From an uncultured Saprospiraceae bacterium (GTDB lineage: Bacteria > Bacteroidota > Bacteroidia > Chitinophagales > Saprospiraceae), in assembly GCA_937951615.1 (NCBI GenBank), contig CALFBH010000001.1, forward strand, positions 62,001 through 126,000: 64,000 bases of DNA, in the 5' to 3' direction. Position 1 is the first letter of the stretch; the number at the start of each line of letters is the position of its first letter. Below the pieces are notes generated by a model. It saw only the letters and a program-made list of their open reading frames with translations. It did not search any database and was not told where the DNA came from. Positions 6,255-13,472 of this stretch are shown piece by piece. A program made the translations under genes and the position numbers.

Positions 6255-6848
6255 ATGACCATTCAAACACAGACCAAAACAATTTCACCAATTCGTAAAC
6301 GCTTGTTTACAGTAGAGGAATATTATAAAATGGCAGAGGCTGGTATTCTACAAGACGAAGAACGTGTGGAACTGTTGAATGGCGAAATTATAACTATGAG
6401 TCCAATAAATAGTTTTCATGCAGGTACTGTAAATATTCTCTATGGGATGCTTTATGCTCAATTGAATGGAGAAGCGGTTATTATCTGCCAAAATCCAATT
6501 CACCTGAAAAACAGAGATGAACCAGAACCCGATTTTACAATAGCTCATTTCAAACAAAATCAGTATCGGGATGCTCATCCTATTCCTGCCGAAGTTTATT
6601 TTGTCATTGAAGTAGCCGACAGTTCATTGGAAAAAGACCGTGAATTTAAACGCCTGCTTTATGCGGAAGCCAATATCCCCGAATACTGGATCGTCAATAT
6701 CCCCAATCGCCAGATTGAAGTGTTCCGACAAGCCAAAGATGGAGATTATCAGGAGCAGACCATTGCAAAAATTGGAGAACAGGTGGCTTCTTCTACTACT
6801 GAATTTGTGTTGGTGGTGGAGGATTTGCTGGGTGGCTTTTCTGAATAA
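6255..6848 (+). CDS. Uma2 family (DUF820) nuclease-fold protein
   Basis: This 197-aa protein carries the Uma2/DUF820 domain, a PD-(D/E)xK restriction-endonuclease-like fold common in cyanobacteria and Bacteroidota. It has the VELLNGEIITMSP entry motif (residues 38-50), PEPDFTI with D93, VYFVIEVADSSLEKDRE with E119, and the YWIVNIPNRQIEVF strand near 145-158. The acidic core residues look intact, so activity is possible, but the biological role of this family is unknown. It stands alone, with no partner gene on either side. The start at ATG 6255 puts about 16 polar residues ahead of the domain, which is normal. Confidence 0.88.
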   Translation: MTIQTQTKTISPIRKRLFTVEEYYKMAEAGILQDEERVELLNGEIITMSPINSFHAGTVNILYGMLYAQLNGEAVIICQNPIHLKNRDEPEPDFTIAHFKQNQYRDAHPIPAEVYFVIEVADSSLEKDREFKRLLYAEANIPEYWIVNIPNRQIEVFRQAKDGDYQEQTIAKIGEQVASSTTEFVLVVEDLLGGFSE

Positions 6849-7171: not shown

Positions 7172-8743
7172 ATGAAAATCAATAAACCATTCTTTACCGC
7201 AGTATTTATACTGTTTTCTTTTTCTGCTTTTTCACAAAATTGGACACCTATTGCCGTAAACGATGAATATCATTATGAACTGGTCGGTAGTACGGCTATG
7301 TATGACTCCACCACTATATTCAATGGAGGCTATATTCGCTATAATAGTCCGGTGGACGCTACCATCTGGATAGATTCGACCACAGTAAATGCCGGGCAAA
7401 CCATTTATCACCTCAATAAAATTGTAAAGCCCTGCGATACCTGTCCTGCATCACCTCCAGTTTATCTACGGAATCAACAGCAGTTTTTGCAACATCGTAT
7501 AATTTCTGATAATGCTGGTAAATATATTTTTGATGGTGATGAAAAATGGACTGTTTTTCCTCAAGTCCAAACTGGAACAAACTGGCTTTTTGACACATTA
7601 AATACTATCACCGCCGAAGTCATAGCAATTGAAGAAAATCAAATATTCGGGAATACAGATTCTCTAAAAACCATTCTTTTATCAAATAATGACACGCTCA
7701 TTTTATCCAAAGAACATGGAATTATTCGCTTTCCGCAAATGCAAAACAATACTTATCACAAGCTGATTGGAATACAAACTCGCGACTTGGGAGCAAGTAT
7801 TCCAGGTTTTCAGGAAATGTATGATTTTGAGGTTGACGATGTGTTTCAATATTACTACTACTTTGAAGCCATACAGGGCGGATATACAGGTCAGGCAAAG
7901 ATATCCATACTAGGCAAACAGGTTTGGACGGATTCTGTGAGATATGATATTGAGCGGATTCTGAGCCATTCATTAATCAATTATGGAACAACATATCCGC
8001 CCATAGTCACAACAGTACAGTTTTCACATACTTTCTATAAAGACGACATTGCCAACCAATATCCTGGACATTTATTTGAGGATGATATGATGTGTCAATG
8101 GGACGGCGAATGGGGTACGGAGCAATCTGACTGTACACGCTTTGGTTTTCCATTGGACAATAAATATTTTACCACAGAATACGGACAAAATCAAGATGAT
8201 AAATGGGTGAAGTTTATGCATTCTATGGACTTCTCTTCTTCTACACGCCTTAGTGATTTTTTTAGTGATGACCCCAATTCAGATATATTATCGCCCGACG
8301 AATGCTTTGGTGGTGGTTATACTTATCGAAGAAGCTGGGAAGAAGGACTTGGCGAGACTTCATTTACATTTAGTTGTTTTGAAGGTTATGGTATAAGAGA
8401 GTTGTCGGGCTATATCGTAGATGGCGATACGACAGGCATTATCACACCTGACTCTGTATTGATTCTTTCCAATGAAAGTGTAAGCTTGCGTACTGCCGCA
8501 AATATAGAAGTTTATCCCAATCCTGCAACTGATTATATCTCCTTTAAAATCAATGCTGTTCACTCTGTTTCCGAGTTGGACATCACGATTTATGATACGA
8601 TGGGTAAGGCATTGAAAACGGAAAATTATGCCGCCACTGCATCAGGTGAACTACAAGTCAGCGACTTGCTGCCAGGGATGTATTTATTGTCTTTTGAAAT
8701 GGATGGGCAGGTTTTTACTCGGAAGTTTGTGAAGGTGGAATAG
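7172..8743 (+). CDS. Secreted protein with T9SS type A sorting domain
   Basis: This 523-aa protein starts with a signal peptide (lysines, then PFFTAVFILFSFSAFSQ, cleavage after about residue 21). It ends with a type IX secretion C-terminal domain at about residues 446-523: YPNPATDYISF opens it, a TIYDTMGKAL strand follows, and LLPGMYLLSF and a TRKFVKVE end close it. It should therefore be exported by Sec, carried across the outer membrane by T9SS and attached to the surface or released. The middle ~420 residues are rich in aromatic residues, Thr and Asp. They match no family I can name. Cysteines occur in a few clusters (CDTCP near 91) and could form disulfides. No enzymatic motif was recognised. 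Confidence 0.85.
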   Translation: MKINKPFFTAVFILFSFSAFSQNWTPIAVNDEYHYELVGSTAMYDSTTIFNGGYIRYNSPVDATIWIDSTTVNAGQTIYHLNKIVKPCDTCPASPPVYLRNQQQFLQHRIISDNAGKYIFDGDEKWTVFPQVQTGTNWLFDTLNTITAEVIAIEENQIFGNTDSLKTILLSNNDTLILSKEHGIIRFPQMQNNTYHKLIGIQTRDLGASIPGFQEMYDFEVDDVFQYYYYFEAIQGGYTGQAKISILGKQVWTDSVRYDIERILSHSLINYGTTYPPIVTTVQFSHTFYKDDIANQYPGHLFEDDMMCQWDGEWGTEQSDCTRFGFPLDNKYFTTEYGQNQDDKWVKFMHSMDFSSSTRLSDFFSDDPNSDILSPDECFGGGYTYRRSWEEGLGETSFTFSCFEGYGIRELSGYIVDGDTTGIITPDSVLILSNESVSLRTAANIEVYPNPATDYISFKINAVHSVSELDITIYDTMGKALKTENYAATASGELQVSDLLPGMYLLSFEMDGQVFTRKFVKVE

Positions 8744-8770
8744 GTGGAGCAAATTACAAGATAAAAAGTA

Positions 8771-8832
8771 CCAAATTCCAAAAGCATATCATCAAGGCTT
8801 TGTCTTGGTATGCTTTTAGGATTTGGAATTTT
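8771..8832 (+). terminator. Terminator of the T9SS protein gene
   Basis: A long hairpin pairs CCAAATTCC-AAAAGCATA with TATGCTTTT-AGGATTTGG, with one bulge, and is followed by AATTTT. It begins 28 bp after the stop codon at 8743. Confidence 0.6.
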
Positions 8833-8842
8833 AATCTCGCCC

Positions 8843-8964
8843 ATGGTTAAAACCATTGACTACCAAATCATTCGTCGCTATGCGACTTAGCAAGCCTTCA
8901 ACTAGACAACTTTGCAAAGTGTCATAGACACGACCTATCTGGTAGACTACGGTTTCAACCGTAG
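8843..8964. repeat. Structured intergenic repeat region
   Basis: Several short hairpins are strung together: ATGGTT/AACCAT (8843-8856), GTCGC/GCGAC near 8873-8886, and CTACGGTTT with CCGTAG (8947-8964). The composition resembles dispersed non-coding repeats of Bacteroidota genomes. I see no gene between 8833 and 9102. Confidence 0.4.
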
Positions 8965-9018
8965 GCGAATCGGACGGCAAAATTGTGCAATTTGTTATAC
9001 GCACCTCTGACAGCCTTT

Positions 9019-9056
9019 TTTGCCATTCCTTTTATAAAGTTGTAACTTGTAATCTT
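9019..9056 (+). repeat. 38-bp direct repeat, left copy
   Basis: About 30 of 38 bases match 9563-9600, including an identical TTTGCCATTCC. The pair flanks the lone xisI gene in direct orientation. Confidence 0.5.
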
Positions 9057-9102
9057 GGAAAAGATTTTGAAGGTGAAATTTTTTGTCTAAAATCACTAAA
9101 GT

Positions 9103-9444
9103 TTAAGCTACTGCATAATCCGAAAACTCACGCATTTTAGGCGTTACAAAACCGACTACAATATCAGTAGGTGGTACACCTTTATACACCAATTTTTTAC
9201 CAAAATCTATGTCCGTCATATTGCGGTGAAACCATAATTTTTCATTGATGATTTCAATGTGTATCAGGCAATTGTGAATGTATTCGCCATTTTTTTTCCA
9301 GCCTGTGGTAGTGACCATATATCGGCGATTTTCTTTGTCTAAGACAAGCTTAGTCTCCAATTCCGGTTCATTAGAATACTTGATGCCTTCCATGTCGTTA
9401 AGCATCTCTAAAATCATTGATTGGTATTTGGTTGTTTTATCCAT
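9103..9444 (-). CDS. XisI family protein (lone copy)
   Basis: This 113-aa protein has the XisI fold (fdxN element excision controlling factor family). It shows the start MDKTTKYQSMILEML, a GWKKNGEYIHNCLIHIEI strand, KLWFHRNMTDIDFGKKLV, and the family-typical tail GVPPTDIVVGFVTPKMREF. It is divergent from a XisH-XisI pair only 188 bp away and has no XisH of its own. XisI was named for control of heterocyst DNA excision in Anabaena, but most homologues, as here, are in organisms without that process, so their role is unclear. A paralogue without a partner could be an extra antidote or modulator for the neighbouring XisH; that is inference. Confidence 0.85.
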   Translation of the reverse strand: MDKTTKYQSMILEMLNDMEGIKYSNEPELETKLVLDKENRRYMVTTTGWKKNGEYIHNCLIHIEIINEKLWFHRNMTDIDFGKKLVYKGVPPTDIVVGFVTPKMREFSDYAVA

Positions 9445-9469
9445 TTGTCTGTATCACATTTTTCTTTTT

Positions 9470-9477
9470 CAAAGATA
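9470..9477 (-). promoter_or_regulatory. Candidate -7 box for lone xisI
   Basis: The minus strand reads TATCTTTG, a full TAnnTTTG match, 25 bp before the xisI start. A -33 element is not evident. Confidence 0.45.
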
Positions 9478-9562
9478 AGGTTTTTTTGATTTTAAAACAT
9501 GAAGAATTTCATTTGGGATAATTTTCTTATCCCAAGTTGAATATGTAGAAGGAAAAATATAT

Positions 9563-9600
9563 TTTGCCATTCCCCTCATAAATTTGTAAATTGCAGTATT
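9563..9600 (+). repeat. 38-bp direct repeat, right copy
   Basis: Partner of 9019-9056. This copy lies just upstream of xisH and includes TAAATTTG at 9579-9586, a TAnnTTTG match. Confidence 0.5.
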
Positions 9601-9631
9601 CTATCATACTCGTCACTACACCCAAAAACCA

Positions 9632-10045
9632 ATGGCAAAAGACATTTTCCATGAAGAAGTAAAAGAGGCACTAATCAAGGGTGGTTGGATAATCACACAC
9701 GACCCCTTGCCTGTTGCATTTAAGGAAAAAAATGTAGAAATTGACTTAGGAGCAGAGCCTGTACTTGGAGCAATCAAAGAAAATAAGCTAATTGCGGTTG
9801 AAATTAAAAGCTTTATCGGAAAATCCGTCATGTACTCATTTCACGGCGCACTTGGTCAATTTATTAACTATCGCAGAATGTTGAGAAATACCGAGCCTGA
9901 ACGTGTCCTGTTTTTGGCAGTTCCGGTTGACGTTTACGAGGACTTTTTCCTTCATCCTTTTGGCATCAATGCTATTGAAGAAGAAGATTTAAAAATATTG
10001 GTATATGACCCACAGCAAAAAATAATAGTCACATGGATAAGATAA
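9632..10045 (+). CDS. xisH: XisH family nuclease-fold protein
   Basis: This 137-aa protein begins MAKDIFHEEVKEALIKGGW, the diagnostic XisH start, and continues ITHDPLPV. It contains IDLGAEP with D38 and AVEIKSFIG with E57 and K59, the spaced D...ExK set of a PD-(D/E)xK nuclease fold, then FHGALGQFINYR and the FLAVPVDVYEDFF strand. It overlaps the following xisI by 13 bp, so the two are translationally coupled. In Anabaena XisH and XisI are needed together with the XisF recombinase for excision of the fdxN element. No recombinase gene is nearby here, so a stand-alone, possibly conflict-related role is more likely. Confidence 0.92.
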   Translation: MAKDIFHEEVKEALIKGGWIITHDPLPVAFKEKNVEIDLGAEPVLGAIKENKLIAVEIKSFIGKSVMYSFHGALGQFINYRRMLRNTEPERVLFLAVPVDVYEDFFLHPFGINAIEEEDLKILVYDPQQKIIVTWIR

Positions 10046-10365
10046 AACAATATCAACAAATCATCAAAACAGCTATCAAGAATCATCATCATCCGAATAG
10101 GATACACCAATACGATGAATTTGAGTCACAAGTCACCTTTGATGACGAACATGGACATTACTACCTTATCAATGTAGGTTGGAATGAATACAAACGTATC
10201 TTTTCCTGCATTCTACATCTTGATTTAAAGGACGATAAAGTATGGATACATCAAGACTGGACGGAAGGCATTGTAGATGACCTTTTGGCAATGGGTGTAT
10301 CCAAAGAAGATATTGTGCCTGCTTTTCATGCGCCCTATAAACGGAAATATGCAGTATTGCAATAA
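10033..10365 (+). CDS. xisI: XisI family protein, partner of XisH
   Basis: This 110-aa XisI protein is encoded in a different frame overlapping the end of xisH by 13 bp. It has the typical MDKIKQYQQIIKTAI start, GWNEYKRIFSCILHLDLKDD, KVWIHQDWTEGIVDDLLAMG, and the tail VSKEDIVPAFHAPYKR. It is clearly related to but well diverged from the lone XisI at 9103-9444, so the second copy is not a recent duplication. Overlap with xisH indicates the two products are needed in step, probably as a complex. Confidence 0.92.
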   Translation: MDKIKQYQQIIKTAIKNHHHPNRIHQYDEFESQVTFDDEHGHYYLINVGWNEYKRIFSCILHLDLKDDKVWIHQDWTEGIVDDLLAMGVSKEDIVPAFHAPYKRKYAVLQ

Positions 10366-10379
10366 GCATGTATTGTAAA

Positions 10380-10414
10380 AAAATCCAAACCCCACACCTT
10401 GGAATTTGGATTTT
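10380..10414. terminator. Shared terminator between xisI and aspS
   Basis: AAAATCCAAA (10380-10389) pairs perfectly with TTTGGATTTT (10405-10414). T-rich ends on both strands allow it to act for both convergent transcripts. Confidence 0.5.
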
Positions 10415-10434
10415 CCCATTTTGAAATTTTCGAT

Positions 10435-12192
10435 TTACTCGACCAAGTCCAGCCCCAACTCATCCAACTGCTCCTGATGTACCGGCGAAGGCGCATCAAT
10501 CATCATATCCCGTCCCTGATTATTCTTCGGGAAGGCAATGAAATCACGAATCGTATCAACACCATTCATCACTGAACACAAGCGGTCGAAACCAAAAGCG
10601 ATGCCGCCGTGTGGCGGTGCGCCATACTCAAATGCACCCAGTAGGAAACCAAACTGCGCTTCTGCCTCTTCTTTGGTGAAGCCCAATAAATCAAAATTCC
10701 GGCTTTGCAAATCGCGGTCGTGGATACGAATAGAACCACCACCGATTTCCACACCATTGATGACCAAATCATAGGCATCTGCGCGGAGTGACTTCATGGT
10801 TTCGTGGTCGCCATTCATCATGCGTTCCATGTCCTTTTTCTTGGGCGATGTAAAGGGGTGGTGCATGGCGTGAAAACGCTCGCTCTCCTCATCCCATTCC
10901 AATAAAGGAAAATCAACTACCCAAAGCGGATTAAATTGTGTGCGGTCGCGCAAGCCCAATTCATCACCAACATGCAGGCGTAATTCATTGAGTTGCTTGC
11001 GGACTTTTTCTGTTTCACCAGCCATCACTAAGAGCAAATCACCAGGCTTGGCATTCATTTTTTCGCCCCAGGCAGCCAAGTCGTCCTGATTGAAAAATTT
11101 ATCTACGGAGGATTTGTAGCTGCCGTCTTCATTGCGACGCACATAGATCAAACCTTTCGCACCAATCTGCGGACGTTTCACAAAATTGGTCAGCGCATCC
11201 AGTTGCTTGCGGGTATAAGTCGCTGCGCCTTCTGCATTGATGCCAACCACCAGTTCCGCACTATCAAAAACGACAAAATCTTTGCCTTTCGCGACCTCAT
11301 TCAACTCGACAAACTCCATCCCAAAACGGGTGTCTGGCTTATCGGAACCATAACGTTCCATGGCTTCATCATAAGTCATGCGTGGGAAATCTGGTAAGTC
11401 CAGATTCAGCATCGACTTGAATAAATTTTTGGTCAGTCCTTCAAAAGTATTCAGAATATCCTCCTGTGTCACAAAAGACATTTCGCAGTCAATTTGTGTA
11501 AATTCCGGCTGACGATCTGCCCGCAAATCTTCATCACGGAAACATTTGACGATTTGAAAATATTTATCAAAACCAGCCACCATCAGAATCTGCTTGAAGG
11601 TTTGTGGCGATTGTGGCAAAGCATAAAAAAGTCCCTTGTTCATCCTGCTTGGCACAACAAAATCTCGCGCACCTTCTGGTGTACTTTTTATCAAAACAGG
11701 TGTTTCTACTTCCACAAAATCCTGTCCAGCAAGGTAAGTACGCGTTTCAATCGCCAACTTACTTCTGAATATGATATTGTTCTGAACTGGCTTACGACGC
11801 AAGTCCAGGTAACGATAGGTCATCCGCAGGTCGTCGCCGCCGTCCGTGTCATCTTCGATGGTAAATGGCGGCGTTTTAGAAGCATTCAGGATATTCAATT
11901 CAGACACTTCGATTTCAATATCGCCTGTCGGCATATTTGGATTTTTATTGCTGCGCTCGCGCACGGTGCCTTTTATCTGGATGACAAATTCGCGTCCCAG
12001 TTTTCTTGCACTGCCACACAAATCCGCATCATCATCCATGTTGAACACCAGTTGAGTAATTCCATAACGATCTCGAAGGTCAATAAAAGTCATGCCTCCA
12101 AAATCTCTGTTCTTGTTCATCCAGCCGGACAGCAGTACTTCCTGACCGATGTGCGTGGTGCGGAGTTCTCCGCAGTTGTGCGTTCTGTACAT
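10435..12192 (-). CDS. aspS: Aspartyl-tRNA synthetase
   Basis: This 585-aa class II synthetase charges tRNA(Asp). It has an N-terminal OB-fold anticodon-binding domain (residues ~1-110, with [20 protein letters not shown]), motif 2 at 218-235 ([18 protein letters not shown]), the bacterial insertion or GAD domain at ~300-410, and motif 3 near 535-550 ([10 protein letters not shown]). Length and order are those of bacterial-type AspRS. Whether it is discriminating or also charges tRNA(Asn) was not resolved. The start [10 protein letters not shown] is canonical. Confidence 0.98.
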
Positions 12193-12588: not shown

Positions 12589-13080
12589 ATGAATGATGGT
12601 GCTTTAAGTGAACTATTAGCTGCAATCTCTCTTACTCGAAATACAAGTCAAGGGTATTTATTCCGAACTGTTTTAATTGCAGGAAAGTGGCCCGCAATAG
12701 ATATTTACGCAGAGGTCATTGGAGATAGTGTCCCAAAGAATTACTGTTTCATTCAAGTTAAATCTACGACTCTGGGTTATACAGCAAGGGATAATAAATT
12801 GAGAATACAGATTCCCAAAACGAAACTTAATAAATTAGCAGAATTTAACGGACCGAGTTACCTGATTGGAATTGATTATGTGGAAAGTAATCCCTTCGAT
12901 TCTAAAGCTTACATCTCTGCAATAAGAGGTACTTACGCAACAGGATTCTCAAGTATGCCAACAAATAATTTGTTGGACGAAAGCAACCTAATCCGATTGA
13001 AAGATGAGGTAGAAACATTTTGGAACGGAACGAACACATTTGACAAGAAAAACAGTACGACTTCAATATTTGATTTATGA
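12589..13080 (+). CDS. DUF4365-like PD-(D/E)xK protein
   Basis: This 163-aa protein resembles the DUF4365 family, which has a restriction-endonuclease-like fold. It has an N-terminal helix with E8, a hydrophobic strand with D38 (AIDIYAEV), and FIQVKSTT with Q56 and K58, i.e. QxK in place of ExK, as is usual in this family. The remainder includes a YLIGIDYV strand. Its stop codon overlaps the start of the next gene in an ATGA, so the two are coupled. Both look like nuclease-fold proteins, and I found no methylase or immunity gene. The DNA is more AT-rich than the flanking aspS. A role in defence or DNA handling is inferred from fold and context only. Confidence 0.7.
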   Translation: MNDGALSELLAAISLTRNTSQGYLFRTVLIAGKWPAIDIYAEVIGDSVPKNYCFIQVKSTTLGYTARDNKLRIQIPKTKLNKLAEFNGPSYLIGIDYVESNPFDSKAYISAIRGTYATGFSSMPTNNLLDESNLIRLKDEVETFWNGTNTFDKKNSTTSIFDL

Positions 13081-13472
13081 AAAATAAAAGACAATTCCAA
13101 GGCTGGCGTTCTGAACAAATTGCAAAGGTTTTTTTACTCAATTCGGGGCTTTTTGATATAGTTGAGAATTTTTCATCAAATTCAGATGAAAAAGCTGATT
13201 TTATAGCTGTTTATAAAGAAATGGATGATAAGAGATTTGAGGTGGAAGTAAAAGCTACTAAGTATTCTAAACATGAAATTCAGCGTAAATATGCAAAAAA
13301 AAATGGTCATTCTCCTAATGCACTCGTGATAGAATTTTATGTAAATTATGATGAAGAAACTGGCTATTTTAGATTAGCAAATGGCAATTATTCCTCTGAA
13401 CTGAGTAATATGTCTCGCGATAAATTTATTTCTGAAGTAGAAAACTATGCGGTGAAAATCGTAAGACATTAA
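13077..13472 (+). CDS. Small PD-(D/E)xK-like hypothetical protein
   Basis: This 131-aa protein is translationally coupled to the preceding gene through a 4-bp ATGA overlap. It shows a compact nuclease-like layout: a helix with E13 (GWRSEQIAKVFLL), a strand with D41 (EKADFIAVY), then FEVEVKATKY with E57 and K59, and a later strand ALVIEFYVNY. The D...ExK arrangement is complete, so it may be catalytically active, unlike its partner with QxK. I do not recognise a named family. The pairing suggests that the two proteins form a heteromer or act as effector and regulator. Confidence 0.65.
   Translation: MKNKRQFQGWRSEQIAKVFLLNSGLFDIVENFSSNSDEKADFIAVYKEMDDKRFEVEVKATKYSKHEIQRKYAKKNGHSPNALVIEFYVNYDEETGYFRLANGNYSSELSNMSRDKFISEVENYAVKIVRH

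Follow-up and report, generated by a model that had tools for sequence, protein, structure and literature searches.

A solitary xisI beside a xisH-xisI pair in a Saprospiraceae genome: a putative nuclease-inhibitor module and the probable survivor of a second one

Results

Organization of the xis locus

The window, by which we mean the whole stretch of 64,000 nucleotides analysed here from an uncultured Saprospiraceae bacterium, contains a coupled xisH-xisI pair and, divergently oriented beside it, a lone minus-strand xisI. A preliminary description of this DNA had recognized these genes from the sequence, and both a check of the open reading frames, which recovered all three at the same coordinates, and searches with Pfam profiles confirmed the assignment. 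Each protein matches its family over its full length at the score given below, where the curated cut-off for PF08814 and PF08869 is 25 bits. The xisH and xisI genes of the pair overlap by 13 nt and together span 9632-10365 on the plus strand. We refer to the lone and the paired XisI as A-type and P-type, respectively. The features of the locus are as follows.

8835..9004, no strand: palindromic repeat of ~170 bp, ending 14 bp from R1 and distinct from R1 and R2
9018..9056, no strand: left direct repeat R1, 39 bp, 31/39 identical to R2
9103..9444, minus strand: lone xisI (A-type), 113 aa, full length; PF08869, 115 bits
9414..9488, minus strand: sequence read as the 3' scar of a lost xisH; it overlaps the 5' end of the lone xisI and reads ...DKWIKQPNTNQ*
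9513..9535, no strand: inverted repeat TTGGGATAA-ttttc-TTATCCCAA in the divergent intergenic region, part of pair I18
9554..9571, minus strand: possible 5' scar of the same lost xisH, AATGGCAAAATATATTTT, MAKYIF, an inverted match to the start of the intact xisH
9562..9600, no strand: right direct repeat R2, 39 bp, 31/39 identical to R1
9632..10045, plus strand: xisH, 137 aa; PF08814, 167 bits; PD-(D/E)XK fold with D38/E57/K59
10033..10365, plus strand: paired xisI (P-type), 110 aa; PF08869, 122 bits

The whole host genome (6.96 Mb) encodes four XisI and three XisH proteins, and its other two xisHI pairs are ordinary; one of these (L009:3591-5511) directly adjoins a gene pair with weak HigA and RelE matches that lie below the cut-offs of those models. 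PADLOC defence profiles gave no match to XisH or to either XisI of the window (E 0.1), and an Rfam scan of 8700-10500 was likewise negative. The palindromic repeat at 8835-9004 has 61 matches in the genome, itself included, on both strands, and its predicted RNA fold (z -4.3) lies far beyond that of shuffled sequences; it resembles a MITE- or REP-like family. Elsewhere in the window, a Uma2-family putative nuclease is encoded at 6255-6848 (plus strand), ~2.3 kb from the lone xisI, and a Uma2 gene also adjoins xisHI in a Euhalothece type I R-M operon (L251). Two small overlapping reading frames at 12589-13080 and 13077-13472 (plus strand) contain QVKST and EVEVKAT motifs and are possibly PD-(D/E)XK-like; neither has a match in Pfam, PADLOC or NCBIfam.

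The lone xisI retains traces of a lost xisH that is intact in a sister species

The two XisI proteins of the window are only 28% identical and are no closer to each other than random members of the family (mean identity 37%), and a recent duplication of xisI was rejected on account of this low identity. The preliminary description had proposed a phylogeny of the two proteins, and in a FastTree reconstruction of 198 XisI sequences, calculated from few alignment columns, they are of different types and have separate nearest relatives in G199, a species of the same genus. The lone XisI groups with the A-type protein of that species (L116, 74% identical), whose gene shares an overlap with an intact xisH. 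For the paired XisI, the nearest relative is a P-type protein (L117, 89% identical) that is solitary in G199, and L147 of G359, likewise solitary, is also close to it on the tree. At L117 an internal deletion has shrunk the P-type xisH in frame to MAKDIFHEEAKAALIT joined to TWIR*, and the xisI behind it is intact. From these pairings it follows that both species hold both XisI types, and that each type is paired with XisH in one species only, in opposite fashion. The A-type unit of G199 is located on a different contig from its P-type xisI, and the 4.3 kb retrieved around the latter contain no A-type xisI. The dN/dS ratio is 0.12 between the lone XisI and L116, and 0.05 between the paired XisI and L117.

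Comparison with G199 also bears on the sequence immediately upstream of the lone xisI. The alignment between the window and L116 extends 10 nt beyond the start of the lone xisI, into xisH, and the terminal DKWIKQPNTNQ* of the window corresponds to DKWIRQPNTKR* in L116, with identical frame offset and stop. This 3' scar is firm over 9414-9454 and weaker upstream of 9454. Among 5000 shuffles, 12 reached its score against the C-terminal part of the XisH profile, or 20 when only the last 12 residues were considered, and the best match of the XisH HMM in the region falls on it, at a sub-threshold -2.0 bits; a xisH relic was therefore not accepted from the HMM alone, and the G199 comparison settled the 3' end only. 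The candidate 5' scar, inverted pair I7, matches the start of the intact xisH at 16 of 18 nt. In the register that was tested the match is 15/18, a value reached in 3 of 5000 shuffles, and it is the sole match of at least 15/18 in the 64 kb besides the xisH gene itself. Judged by these comparisons, the lone xisI is very probably the survivor of a separate xisHI unit, the xisH of which is nearly gone here and intact in the sister species.

XisH has the fold and active-site residues of PD-(D/E)XK nucleases

The PD-(D/E)xK core that had been read from D38, E57 and K59 is conserved across 120 distinct XisH sequences: D38 and K59 occur in all 120, and E57 in 98%. A structure model of XisH (pLDDT 84.7) most closely resembles the deposited XisH structures 2okf (Z 23.2) and 2inb (Z 22.7), followed at Z 6-9 by nucleases that include EndoMS, Can2/Card1, CdiA-CT and Hjc, all of which we take to be PD-(D/E)XK enzymes. 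Because Z values under 8 are common, the matches to CdiA-CT toxins (Z 7.7 and 5.6) were set aside as evidence. XisH combines the core fold of the superfamily with its D-...-ExK residues and is a putative PD-(D/E)XK nuclease, predicted to cleave DNA or RNA in a metal-dependent manner. The XisI model matched XisI entries at Z 15.4-16.7, with the next entry at 4.7, and the structure search returned no good match to a known antitoxin or immunity protein.

In the genomes surveyed, XisH is almost never found without XisI, whereas XisI is often found alone

XisH and XisI were surveyed in 398 genomes of the window's bacterial family. XisI is present in 69 of them and XisH in 62 of those 69, with up to 14 XisH matches in a single genome. 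The XisH sample comprised the best-scoring 150 of 203 matches, from 57 genomes, the 53 lower-scoring ones lying outside it; the XisI sample comprised 150 of 297 matches plus 18 entries from an order-wide search (six of the same genomes), 168 in all from 51 genomes, with at most 11 candidates scored per family genome. Among the matches listed, a whole XisI immediately follows 144 of the 147 testable XisH, 143 as called by script and one (G324:C329) by reading of L140; two XisH at contig ends and one beside a fragment cut by a contig end were set aside. The three exceptions lack XisI (L208), have a split XisI (L210) or have a fragment of it (L154), such that L208 is the single intact XisH without any XisI among the matches listed. 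Internal stops occur in 5 of the 150 XisH. In contrast, 76 of the 165 testable XisI among the matches listed (three at contig ends were set aside) are without XisH and 89 are with it, and 74 of the 76 are full length, covering ~94% or more of the profile. Fisher's test of this asymmetry among the matches listed gave 5e-22. The order-wide search, in which every candidate was scored apart from some in G182 (22 of 31 scored) and contig ends were included, yielded by hand count in 11 genomes 25 of 25 full-length XisH paired and 23 of 48 full-length XisI unpaired (Fisher's test, 8e-6); in both tests, rows from one genome are non-independent.

The decayed loci are asymmetric as well. Among the matches listed, XisH fragments lie beside XisI at 19 loci and a whole XisH lies beside a broken XisI at two; the script had called 21 relics, of which G199:C246:985 and G366:C49:151 proved to be a second XisI behind an intact pair. 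No neighbouring gene family recurs beside the 81 XisI without a listed XisH, and an alternative partner for solitary XisI was rejected on that ground. Extra XisI proteins beside a pair are mostly diverged (25-41% identity), with exceptions at L119 (62-83%) and L166 (64%). A contig search with one XisH query returned eight loci, seven of which have adjacent XisH and XisI of full length and the eighth of which is degraded, so that named chromosomal relatives are few. Among the matches listed, the two genes form a unit whose putative toxin gene is almost never kept without its partner, as in toxin-antitoxin and effector-immunity systems, and the near absence of XisH without XisI, together with the frequency of XisI alone, suggests that XisI protects cells from XisH.

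Two further arrangements were noted in the survey. Four XisI fragments lie in a row at G041:C105:268-4304, where the genome has just one XisH match, and open frames of 433 aa with a weak, sub-cut-off XisI-like stretch occur in two genomes of another family (L022 and L023).

Solitary XisI proteins are under purifying selection

Three comparisons (L048/L051, L149/L177 and L031/L177) involve solitary XisI from different species at the same chromosomal place, and their dN/dS ratios are 0.02-0.03. Conservation across 18 conserved columns is 0.90 in 83 solitary and 0.88 in 111 paired XisI. In G556, a genome estimated to be 95% complete, XisI is solitary and XisH gave no match. On the XisI tree the paired or solitary state switches ~58 times, which is near the value for shuffled labels and indicates that losses of XisH are frequent and scattered. 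By these measures, solitary XisI proteins are under purifying selection.

The direct repeats are specific to this locus

The direct repeats that flank the lone xisI, given earlier as 38 bp with ~30 of 38 positions identical, are real and measure 39 bp at 31/39. Their local alignment score is 39, as compared to at most 35 in 2000 dinucleotide-shuffled pairs of both flanks (0/2000). A search of the whole 6.96-Mb genome with a 32-base pattern of the letters common to R1 and R2, allowing up to 3 mismatches, found only these two places; the repeats are therefore not common intergenic filler, and that explanation was rejected. A promoter origin was also rejected: the Bacteroidota promoter motif is TTTG-N16-21-TAnnTTTG, and the window contains two matches to it, neither at the repeats, with 3.3 expected by chance.

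Two readings of the repeats were weighed, each of which is compatible with the nuclease-inhibitor explanation developed below. The preliminary description had suggested an insertion or duplication of the xisHI upstream region, and this is possible, if tentative, in the form of an A-type xisI segment that would have entered the upstream region of a P-type xisHI unit, with duplication of ~39 bp. Across six genomes from the genus, 17 nt of R2 recur exactly once more, upstream of the orthologous P-type xisI of G199 (L117); the stretch retrieved there has this one copy and no second xisI, which fits an A-type insertion that duplicated its site. The position of the G199 A-type unit on another contig and the restriction of the repeats to this locus point the same way. 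However, target duplications are usually shorter than 39 bp, R1 and R2 differ at 8 of 39 sites, and their longest identical run is the 12-nt GGAATGGCAAAA, as a start-codon region would be. It is on this run that the other reading builds, in which R1 and R2 would be two xisH leaders with start codon (ribosome site plus ATGGCAAAA, minus strand) left over from a tandem array. R1 and R2 share the minus-strand ending GGAATGGCAAAA, from which R2 runs on as MAKYIF with its 16/18 nt likeness to the intact xisH start, as would fit leaders whose xisH genes have been lost; arrays that contain two or more XisH or XisI occur at L119, L150 and L175. We nevertheless regard this reading as rather unlikely, as the HMM detected no XisH-like sequence after R1 and none of 117 xisH leaders, the window's own included, matches either repeat above shuffles, a result on which R1 and R2 were rejected as leaders of other xisH genes.

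On cyanobacterial plasmids xisHI occurs in defence loci

XisH was found in 38 plasmid records and XisI in 42, and among the matches listed all are cyanobacterial except Herpetosiphon. At the 19 plasmid places inspected, XisI occurs without detected XisH in Anabaena cylindrica, TIOX110, two Synechocystis (the loci of which are near-identical), Nostoc commune SO-36, Picosynechococcus PCC 7003 and Brasilonema; a broken XisH accompanies a whole XisI in Leptolyngbya boryana and Pseudanabaena galeata, and both genes have decayed in 'Nostoc azollae'. In PCC 7003 the first 12 xisH codons are fused in frame to xisI, and PCC 7002 has both genes. The same alignable defence locus of the two strains (L247:7247-8743 and L242:1511-2336) contains a higB-HTH pair that has met the same fate: in PCC 7003 higB is reduced to its end and the HTH gene behind it is kept. 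In both cases the first gene was lost and the next retained, although HigB is an annotated toxin family and XisH is not annotated as such.

Nine intact plasmid pairs (H1, H2, H5, H7, H9, H17, H23, H26 and H39) were inspected, and five of these nine, which were hand-picked rather than random, lie in or beside defence loci on cyanobacterial plasmids.

PglX-xisHI-BrxC: BREX (L254)
type I M-xisHI-Uma2-S-R: type I R-M, Euhalothece (L251)
SspBC-xisHI: Ssp (L252)
drmA-xisHI-methyltransferase: DISARM, by annotation (L236)
HmaB/DUF1156 locus with xisHI: defence

In the window's family, PADLOC profiles revealed no clear excess of defence genes within 2 kb of xisHI over solitary xisI (among the 25 models listed, the most frequent matched 3 out of the 135 genes flanking 58 xisHI loci and 2 out of the 107 flanking 40 solitary loci), and an association of this kind was rejected there. 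In a separate arrangement (L237:1363-2330 and L240:1363-2330), a solitary XisI gene shares 4 nt with an adjoining gene for a 213-aa protein that weakly matches N6-methylases.

The host genome lacks an XisF-type recombinase domain

According to the accessible text of two reports, excision of the fdxN element in Anabaena requires xisHI (PMC4874684, PMC2674450). The XisH and XisI of that element (PF08814/PF08869; structures 2inb, 2okf, 2nlv, 3d7q, 2nwv and 2nvm) agree with those of the window in families, gene order and overlap, and the window XisH is 49% identical to 2okf and 2inb in structural alignment. The present locus differs in that one XisI is solitary and in that the XisF-type large serine recombinase, the partner expected of an fdxN excision factor, has no counterpart in the host genome; the earlier remark that no recombinase is nearby holds for the large serine recombinase domain PF07508, which has 0 matches in the genome. 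Of the 69 XisI-bearing genomes, 61 are without PF07508 and 8 have a match. XisH was absent from isolate phage records and was found in one contig of a viral collection. On that contig (L235:733-4681), xisHI lies ~1.5 kb from a 554-aa reading frame that, judged by reading, resembles a large serine recombinase, an arrangement like that of the fdxN element.

Discussion

Two XisI types, the scar of a lost xisH, reciprocal pairing in a sister species, a family-wide asymmetry and purifying selection can each be read from the sequences compared here, and we consider it probable that xisHI is a nuclease-inhibitor module of toxin-antitoxin-like character and that the lone xisI is a solitary inhibitor under selection. 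In this model, the two genes would act like a toxin-antitoxin or effector-immunity pair, in which XisI, translated from the overlapping start, would keep the nuclease XisH harmless. The lone xisI would be the solitary inhibitor of a second, divergent unit of another type, the nuclease gene of which was presumably deleted to its last codons and perhaps also keeps its first, and this XisI may have been retained as protection against XisH of the same type that arrives from outside or resides elsewhere. The model predicts that XisH is harmful alone and neutralized by XisI. The preliminary description had thought a nuclease with one or two inhibitor-like partners conceivable. The idea of a nuclease and its inhibitor has gained strength from the asymmetry, the conserved PD-(D/E)XK site and the lack of an XisF-type recombinase domain, whereas the extra XisI is best read as the survivor of the other unit rather than as an additional partner for the XisH next to it. 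Against the model stand the requirement for xisHI in fdxN excision, the lack of a clear excess of defence genes beside xisHI in the window's family, the absence of good XisI matches to known antitoxins or immunity proteins, the intact XisH of L208 that has no XisI, and the sub-threshold HMM score of the 3' scar.

The asymmetry between XisH and XisI would also be expected if XisI had an independent function on which XisH simply relied. XisI could then be the main protein, a regulator or a DNA- or RNA-binding protein with its own role, and XisH a dispensable accessory that folds or works only with XisI, easily lost but unable to persist without it. The conservation and low dN/dS of solitary XisI agree with this, as does G556, where no XisH was found. 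We consider it unlikely, since the genes are patchily distributed and occur in many copies (69 of the 398 family genomes encode XisI, and one genome has as many as 14 XisH matches), diverged XisI occur beside one XisH, the nuclease site of XisH is conserved, and plasmids carry the pair within defence loci. Still less probable is that xisHI is a recombination accessory, either an excision-controlling pair that works with another recombinase or the leftover of an excised element. The family name and the Anabaena genetics, as far as the accessible text of PMC4874684 and PMC2674450 describes them, would favour such a role, as would the viral-collection contig with its recombinase-like reading frame near xisHI. 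Yet PF07508 is absent from the host genome and present in only 8 of the 69 XisI genomes, and an XisI without XisH would be roleless in such a pair.

The nuclease-inhibitor model has parallels in known systems. In the accessible text of a Klebsiella survey of type II toxin-antitoxin systems (PMC7192599), orphan antitoxins resemble XisI in that the inhibitor-like gene often occurs without the toxin; here, however, solitary xisI is under purifying selection at fixed loci, and the toxin and antitoxin roles of XisH and XisI are putative. The orphan immunity arrays of the Vibrio cholerae type VI secretion system, as the text consulted presents them (PMC5361080), place diverged partners behind one complete pair, as is seen at L150, L175 and L176, but XisH is a bare 137-aa domain and no secretion cluster was seen. 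A published single-cell genome is described, in the part of the report that was accessible, as having four xisH and seven xisI (PMC4853749), which is the same direction as the asymmetry. In the accessible text of the reports consulted that name XisH and XisI, XisI is not termed an antitoxin; PMC4853749 mentions both XisI and antitoxin, and its accessible XisI passages draw no link. XisH and XisI domains are among the predicted eCIS-associated toxins of Moorena in the accessible text of PMC11297309, a listing that is a prior hint of toxicity.

Both the window's family and cyanobacteria have many copies of the xisHI genes, which are annotated as excision factors, yet 61 of the 69 XisI-bearing genomes have no XisF-type recombinase domain. 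We put forward, as a possibility that falls somewhat short of even odds, that XisH-XisI is a widespread and unrecognized nuclease-inhibitor (toxin-antitoxin or guard) family that serves as an add-on in cyanobacterial BREX, type I R-M, Ssp and DISARM loci, that solitary XisI protects against XisH, and that the part played in fdxN excision was acquired later by co-option. The asymmetry predicts that XisH is harmful and XisI protective in a type-specific manner and, if this is true, a widely misread gene pair would be reassigned. Natural matched pairs are provided by the A-type XisI of the window with the XisH of G199, by the P-type XisH of the window with the XisI of G199, and by PCC 7002 with PCC 7003.
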